DNA from: Verrucomicrobiota bacterium
Lineage (GTDB): Bacteria; Verrucomicrobiota; Verrucomicrobiia; Palsa-1439
Assembly (NCBI GenBank): GCA_003152315.1
Contig: PLZV01000030.1
Span: 227,248 to 291,247, forward strand
Direction: 5' to 3'
Length of the DNA stretch: 64,000 bases
The notes under the pieces were generated by a model. It made no database searches, was not told the DNA's origin, and saw only the letters and a program-made list of their open reading frames with translations. Made by a program: the position numbers and the translations under genes. Positions within the stretch are counted from its first letter, which is position 1; each line of letters opens with the position of its first letter. Of the stretch, positions 9,002 to 44,502 are shown one piece after another.

Positions 9002-9270
9002 ATTTGTTGGAATTATAGCGTTGTCCTTTCTTCAAGTTCAACTCATGAGCGAAGCACCCACCCTTCATCCCCTCCGATGCGGGGAGCCCGCCTAACTATC
9101 GAATAAAGATATTTCTTACTGGACAGGGTGCGGCGGGATGGGTATTGTCGGCGTGTGAATTGTGAATTGAGGCGTAACGGAGGCAAACGGACGGCGAGAA
9201 AGTACAGGCGAGACGCCTCTTCAACTCGATGCCGGGAAACCACAGGCGGGACCCCCGCGCCATTGCGCCG

Positions 9271-9307: not shown

Positions 9308-9330
9308 TCGGCGGGAAAGATGGGGGCCTA

Positions 9331-9458
9331 TATACGTTTCTGCGAAACGAACCCACCGATTTGGAAGGCGTTTTTGTGTGTATCATCCTTATGTAAAAAT
9401 ACTTATGCCGTTTGCAGAAGGGGTTTGCAGGTGGGTTCGTTTTGGAAAACGAACCCAC
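9331..9458 (+). repeat. REP-like dispersed hairpin element, copy A
   Basis: A 128-bp element that also occurs, inverted, at 44123-44250. The first 25 bp (TATACGTTTCTGCGAAACGA then ACCCA) and the block ACTTATGCCGTTTGCAG are identical in both copies, while the middle is diverged. It begins with a small hairpin (GTTTC-TGC-GAAAC) and ends with a near-perfect one at 9430-9459 (arm GGTGGGTTCGTTTT, its complement after GG). The motif AACGAACCCACC of the final hairpin already occurs once at the start (9346-9357), so the GGTGGGTTCGTT arm could pair with either copy. Translated, this gives KTNPP-type spurious peptides. Confidence 0.85.
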
Positions 9459-9607
9459 CGGGAGGGGTTTTTGGGGGTGGTTTCATGAAAAGTGGAGTCA
9501 TTTTGGGTCGAAAGTGGGTTCGTTTTACCTCGAAACTCAAGAGGCGAACCTTCAAACCCCTCACCTTAATCCTGTGCCGTATACGACAACGGGTTTGCCG
9601 CGGGAGT

Positions 9608-43930: not shown

Positions 43931-44122
43931 GTTCTCACCCGCGATCCGCGAGCTACAGTCTACCAGCACTGGGCCCACCGGGCAAACTGAATCCGGGCCA
44001 TCCACGTAGTGCCCTGCTTCGATAAGCGAAGCGCAGCACTGACTGAGCGACCCGCGACGGCGACGTTTTCGCGGCAATTCTTCTCGTAATCCGCTACCTG
44101 ACCCCCATTTTATCCCCCCAAA

Positions 44123-44250
44123 ATGGGTTCGTTTTCCCAGAACGAACCCATTTGCAAACGCTCCTGCAAACGGCATAAGTCTCTGTAAATAAAAGTGGTA
44201 CAGCAAAAACTCCACGAAAATAAAATGGGTTCGTTTCGCAGAAACGTATA
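44123..44250 (-). repeat. REP-like dispersed hairpin element, copy B
   Basis: Inverted relative to copy A (9331-9458) and exactly as long (128 bp). In minus-strand reading it starts TATACGTTTCTGCGAAACGA, contains ACTTATGCCGTTTGCAG, and ends in a hairpin whose full arms (44121-44153) are AAATGGGTTCGTT and its complement around a 7-base loop. The outer stem bases differ from copy A (A-T pairs where A has G-C pairs) but remain complementary. Repeat B lies inside an apparent 5' extension of the propeller gene. Confidence 0.85.
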
Positions 44251-44502
44251 GGGGCCCCTTGCCTGGCCTTCGACTCGTCCGCCAGAGCACGAAATGCGAC
44301 GGCGTAAGCTCGAAAACAAGGCTGATCGCAAGTTGAACGTTCATCTGTTTCGCGGACTATATCTCTTCCCCCAAACAGTGTCTAGTAAAATTATCAATCA
44401 ACGATATAAGGGTCCGTCGCCGGTAGCGCGACACGATGCGTCGTGGTTTTGCCCGGCAGGTCTCGCAGGACCAAATTCGCGCACTACCCCATCCATCATT
44501 GC

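Follow-up and report, generated by a model that had tools for sequence, protein, structure and literature searches.

Dispersed repeats in bacterial genomes are usually read either as dead sequence or as REPs driven by RAYTs. In REP/REPIN-type elements two inverted conserved ends enclose a variable spacer, and the whole is moved in trans by a RAYT tyrosine transposase. A GTAG/CGTC tag marks most REPs, and a survey of such tagged repeats reports GTAG repeats in Verrucomicrobia (PMC3733652).

Here we describe a family of about 50 to 150 dispersed elements per genome, found in one genus of Verrucomicrobiota, for which an Rfam search returned no match above the gathering score and of which we found no description in the literature searched. 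Two copies lie in the window – the stretch of 64,000 nucleotides analysed here – and we judge from the sequence, at a probability of roughly 60%, that they are members of a genus-specific family of dispersed structured non-coding RNA genes.

A preliminary description had placed two inverted copies at 9.3 and 44.1 kb of the window, and both are found there: copy A at 9331–9458 on the plus strand, and copy B on the minus strand, where the 19-mer TTTCTGCGAAACGAACCCA spans 44244–44226. The window holds just two matches to this 19-mer, against 0.02 expected. Direct reading also confirms that the copies share an identical first 25 bp (TATACGTTTCTGCGAAACGAACCCA) and an identical central block (ACTTATGCCGTTTGCAG), that both end in a GGGTTCGTT../..AAACGAACCC hairpin, and that the outer stem is built of G-C pairs in copy A (GGTGGG/CCCACC) and of A-T pairs in copy B (AAATGGG/CCCATTT). 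Two features had been overlooked. The first arm of the hairpin (arm b) also pairs with a 5′ arm (arm a), AAACGAACCCA, some 85–95 nt upstream, which gives b two complementary partners, a and c; and a promoter-like block lies upstream of the copies (Table 1). Folded as a single sequence, copy A is moderately better than its shuffles (z −2.4).

Table 1. Features of the two copies in the window.
Feature	Position	Strand	Sequence	Basis
Copy A promoter-like block	9120..9148	+	−35 TGGACA (9120-9125), 17-nt spacer, −10 TATTGT (9143-9148)	Flagged independently by a generic promoter scan; also present upstream of the orthologous copy in G002
Copy A structured element	9325..9470	+		Covariance model R1, 127.9 bits, E 3.3e-28; copy A (read from locus L029) belongs to the R1 training alignment
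Copy A arm a	9345..9357	+	AAACGAACCCACC	Direct reading; pairs with arm b
Copy A arm b	9430..9442	+	GGTGGGTTCGTTT	Direct reading; complementary to arms a and c
Copy A arm c	9447..9459	+	AAACGAACCCACC	Direct reading; b–c is the hairpin of the preliminary description
Copy B promoter-like block	44356..44384	-	−35 TAGACA (44384-44379), 17 nt, −10 TATAGT (44361-44356)	Direct reading; also picked up in the family promoter scan
Copy B structured element	44111..44256	-		Covariance model R1, 123.4 bits, E 3.8e-27; copy B belongs to the R1 training alignment
Copy B arm a	44223..44236	-	AAACGAACCCATTT	Direct reading
Copy B arm b	44141..44153	-	AAATGGGTTCGTT	Direct reading
Copy B arm c	44121..44134	-	AAACGAACCCATTT	Direct reading

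These are far from the only two copies. A genome-wide count, as the preliminary description had proposed, gives 172 places matching the 19-mer at ≤3 mismatches in the 4.89-Mb draft genome to which the window belongs (G000), against 2 for the reversed pattern. From 80 fetched stretches of G000, mostly of 20 kb and about 1.42 Mb in total, 101 full copies were extracted, none of them (0/101) inside a gene as called by a simple caller of our own. Their consensus runs from a left flank (AAAACATGYG or GGCCYATATACG) through arm a (TTTCTGCGAAACGAACCC) and a hypervariable interior to arm b (GGGTTCGTTT), which begins 93–96 nt past the first conserved base of the element; in many copies a third arm c, AAACGAACCC, follows. 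Interior identity to the nearest neighbour is 0.84 at most (median 0.71): the copies are not near-identical duplicates. The layout is that of a REPIN – two conserved inverted ends, a variable spacer, an extragenic location and high copy number. The conserved sequence reaches past the inverted arms; a MITE has its terminal inverted repeats at the extremities, together with a target-site duplication. There is also a shorter subfamily with the same left end, TTTCTGCGAAACGAA, then CCCCCAGTTAAG...GGGGG and another inner hairpin (L035, L038, L039 and L076 in G000; L105 and L155 in G002).

The preliminary description had held that stem pairing is kept despite sequence change, and a covariation test of the kind it suggested is strongly positive on the 101 copies. 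The a–b stem has 13 pairs, with 98% of 1313 cells paired and compensatory changes at six pairs; changes on both sides number 189, compared with 66.6 ± 8.5 after shuffling, and none of 500 shuffles reaches 189. The covariation score of a–b is 0.341, that of slid versions at most 0.065. Of the 60 copies with an arm c, 37 have a b arm that fits it at the three variable positions. Compensatory changes in the stem exceed the column-composition controls and the core has changed independently in a congener (G001, below), as in a structured RNA family. In one cluster of 22 copies (cluster 5), the RNA strand also forms an interior helix rich in U-G pairs (−8.5, against −0.7 ± 0.9 shuffled and 0.0 for the other strand), while the other clusters are not clearly above shuffles. 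Forbidding G-U in the folding removes this inner helix, which makes G-U-free folding unusable as an unbiased strand test.

The scarcity of G-U pairs in the outer stem (4 of 1313 cells) is also compatible with palindrome repair or gene conversion at the level of DNA. Perfect pairing would then be kept by quasi-palindrome correction or by conversion among copies rather than by selection on an RNA, and it accords with this that whole arm blocks switch jointly (AATT to CACCG types) at orthologous loci and that modules swap between copies. We nevertheless hold this explanation to be very improbable, for it leaves unexplained the conservation of promoter and boxA, the strand-specific helix of cluster 5 with its many U-G pairs, and the equal architecture that the G001 family builds on another core. 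Other candidates were tried and rejected. Peptides such as RWVRFGKRTHR seemed conserved by eye, but 3-base periodicity is absent and stops occur in every frame; and the interiors, considered as antisense guides, are no more similar to the rest of the fetched loci than shuffled interiors are, except in the upper tail (best 139 bits).

The promoter-like block came to light through 10-mers found upstream of the copies. It reads TGGACA-N17-TATAGT and lies upstream on the same strand in 62 of the 101 copies, mostly 67–241 nt away and with the exact 17-nt spacing in 58 of the 62; in the other 39 the stretch searched holds no match. A tight version of the pattern has 51 matches in the fetched loci, which were chosen around elements, and 44 of these fall ≤400 nt upstream of a same-strand element. 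Across whole genomes, at ≤2 mismatches, there are 60 matches in G000, 23 in G002 and 14 in G001, and none in 21 other genomes or with the reversed control; by hand comparison, about 48 of the 60 in G000 stand just upstream of a listed copy. On these counts, the block is nearly confined to these elements and to one genus. A boxA-like sequence, GTTCTTTGACA, follows 4–8 nt past the −10 block in 28 of the 62 (0 in a control window), though in neither window copy. It is one base off GYTCTTTAANA, the boxA consensus of gamma-proteobacteria (PMC5725501); the fetched loci, searched for the boxA of the host's own rRNA leader, hold no 16S. In boxA-controlled transcripts, a boxA close to the 5′ end recruits NusB/NusE. 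An operator-like palindrome, ATCGnATTnCGAT, occupies the spacer of 16 of the 62 promoters (e.g. at L017, L028, L034 and L096), and the remaining promoters have a TATCG..GATA-like sequence 5′ of the −35 block, hinting that the promoters may be regulated in common.

How the family is inherited can be followed in two congeners. G002, about 85% identical to G000 in aligned stretches, has 72 pattern matches, and for most of its comparable copies the orthologous site in G000 is occupied as well, both window copies included. At some of these sites the flank has stayed and the interior, or the type of arm, has been replaced as a unit, which points to exchange between copies. In the more distant G001 the G000-type element is seemingly absent, yet there are 14 promoter blocks, 13 of them with a boxA-like sequence, and they precede an element of the same layout with another core, AAACRAAGCC..GGCTTYGTTT. 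The second arm stands at 89–90 nt in nearly all units, and a second b arm is found in place of c. G001 has at least 50 units with this core, and other genera have none. Counted by hand, the R/Y position is G-C in about 25 units, A-T in 16, G-T in 5 and A-C in 2. With a covariance model trained on G000 copies, 13 of the 14 G001 units are recovered on the RNA strand at E values of 1.7e-13 to 1e-4, and the remaining one at 0.028. Of the other 382 genomes of the class that were searched, none contains the G000-type inverted-arm pattern in its exact form.

At one locus, a G001 unit lies inside 914 bp between convergent genes that are only 43 bp apart in G000, the empty site spanning the entire 0.9-kb region; over longer times, units thus seem to appear and disappear as blocks. 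A search for nested insertions within G000 found no clean empty sites. On the best reading, the family would be passed down at fixed sites between close species and gained or lost between distant ones.

Similar sequences occur further afield. A distant member of the class, G020 (CAIQCK01, L125–L144), has about 21 copies of TTTYTGCGAAACGAACC(CAAAT), with the second arm a direct rather than an inverted repeat, and three of its congeners have none. The sequence TTTTTGCGAAACGAACCC has 64 matches (≤2 mismatches; control 0) in a Bryobacterales MAG, G384 (L259, L263, L266 and L269), and 28 in an Acidobacteriaceae MAG; the Bryobacterales copies have a boxA-like TTCTTTGACA on the opposite strand, about 100 nt away or nearer. 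TTTTTGCGAAACGAACCC also stands upstream of genes that resemble, as judged by eye, AbrB-type and CopG-type antitoxins; these cases come from an Acidobacteria MAG and from a soil viral contig (L178/L264, L189).

The element had initially been read as REP-like. What survives of this is a multi-copy, dispersed, structured element; what does not is its identity as a REP or BIME and its mobilisation by a RAYT. In favour of a REP stand the inverted conserved ends, the variable spacer of fixed length and the more than 100 intergenic copies; Y1 transposases, too, are at hand, with 11 matches to Y1_Tnp (PF01797) in G000 and three RAYT-like genes that have an element copy 313–667 bp upstream. A search for RAYTs, which the preliminary description had recommended, thus does find such genes; read by eye, they adjoin GTAG palindromes of their own, and they do not track the copies. 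G002 combines 72 copies with 0 matches to a 155-aa RAYT type, two further genomes (G003 and G006) have six RAYT matches each and 0 copies, and no contig of G020 bears both a Y1 gene and a copy. An unpaired GTAG or CGTC tag is absent from the consensus of the 101 copies. The dedicated promoter-like block, the inheritance at orthologous sites and the absence of recent near-identical copies also count against a REP/REPIN moved by a RAYT, which we consider distinctly unlikely. G000 too has GTAG repeats. Each of the RAYTs at L019:2132–2599, L025 and L021 has a GTAG palindrome family of its own next to it, and four GTAG-type motifs run with the GC skew in 18 of 69 cases, a lean opposite to that of the element.

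The element itself follows the skew. In G000, 86 of 110 copies are oriented along the G-rich strand (p=2e-9), with no relation between orientation and gene strand (rho 0.03); in G002, 21 of 26 run with the GC skew (p=0.0025), the rank correlation there not being significant; and the copies of G020 show no such bias. A bias of this kind fits expressed RNA genes co-oriented with replication, and it fits insertion into the lagging-strand template equally well. The latter would be expected of a non-autonomous, hairpin-ended element moved through single-stranded DNA by an IS200/IS605-like or unknown enzyme and now mostly inactive, its promoter being cargo. Presence and absence between species would also agree with this, as would the relation of the left hairpin to the right one: in G000 both are direct copies of a single motif, and in G020 they are plain direct repeats. 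We think it unlikely, in part because strongly expressed RNA genes can give an equal strand bias and G020 is unbiased; moreover, none of the 11 Y1 matches was seen to have ends matching those of the element, no conserved target tetranucleotide could be made out, and a dead transposon would need neither compensatory evolution of its stem nor retention of its promoter over speciation.

Since arm b is the complement of a as well as of c, the element could instead be a cis-regulatory leader, in which b alternates between the two partners and attenuates transcription of the gene downstream. That gene is co-oriented in 62 of 89 copies, and in divergent regions copies lie closer to it. This, too, seems improbable: 20 of 58 promoter-bearing units face an oppositely oriented gene, the G001 unit between convergent genes can serve as leader to neither of them, a second b arm takes the place of c in G001, and the genes around the window copies are unrelated (psd, a GDSL hydrolase, DUF1326 and one without a match).

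We therefore return to structured non-coding RNA genes as the preferred reading. The sequence itself shows how many copies there are and that they are intergenic, the co-evolution of their arms, the promoter-like block, the bias towards one replication strand, the inheritance of sites, and a site occupied in one genome and empty in another. A full unit would comprise a sigma-70-type promoter (TGGACA-17 nt-TATAGT), a boxA-like 5′ end (in roughly every second unit that bears a promoter), a leader of variable length, about 70–400 nt, and then the folded RNA element. In this element the 5′ arm (AAACGAACCC or AAACRAAGCC) would pair with a 3′ arm starting 89–96 nt downstream, the two enclosing the hypervariable interior of nearly fixed length, while the third arm could compete for the second. 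The units are presumably transcribed, boxA may act as an antiterminator, and the paired arms could be what a shared RNA-binding factor recognises, in which case the copies would act in trans on that factor and not on neighbouring genes. A sponge or scaffold role in trans is our best guess, preferred because the copies are not consistently oriented with respect to neighbouring genes; it is conjecture, and the least certain part of the proposal. Units seem to be gained and lost as blocks, and modules to be exchanged by recombination in the conserved arms. Such units might even represent a SINE-like bacterial class – self-contained modules of promoter, boxA and folded RNA that multiply through the genome as transcribed units and are afterwards retained as functional non-coding RNA genes, their mutually complementary arms evolving in a concerted, compensatory way – a reading that we offer only tentatively.

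If the preferred reading holds, this would rank among the larger groups of related non-coding RNA genes in one bacterial genome, with its own promoter, a compensatory stem, a core replaced between congeners and a replication-linked orientation; and whether such repeats are retained for a function or spread as transcribed units would become a testable question.

Among known systems, REPINs and BIMEs (PMC3116915) share with the element inverted conserved ends, a variable spacer of near-fixed length and more than 100 intergenic copies. The likeness is structural only: the element is untagged (no GTAG), lacks a cognate RAYT and has its own promoter-like block, its arms covary across subfamilies, and orthologous sites are retained while recent duplicates are absent. 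GTAG-/CGTC-tagged REPs (PMC3733652) are likewise dispersed palindromic repeats, but of 20–40 bp, whereas the element is about 130 nt long, untagged and promoter-linked. With boxA-led non-coding transcripts, namely rRNA leaders (PMC5725501), a subset of elements shares GTTCTTTGACA directly after the promoter, although the boxA is putative here and it heads not rRNA operons but some 100 dispersed short units.
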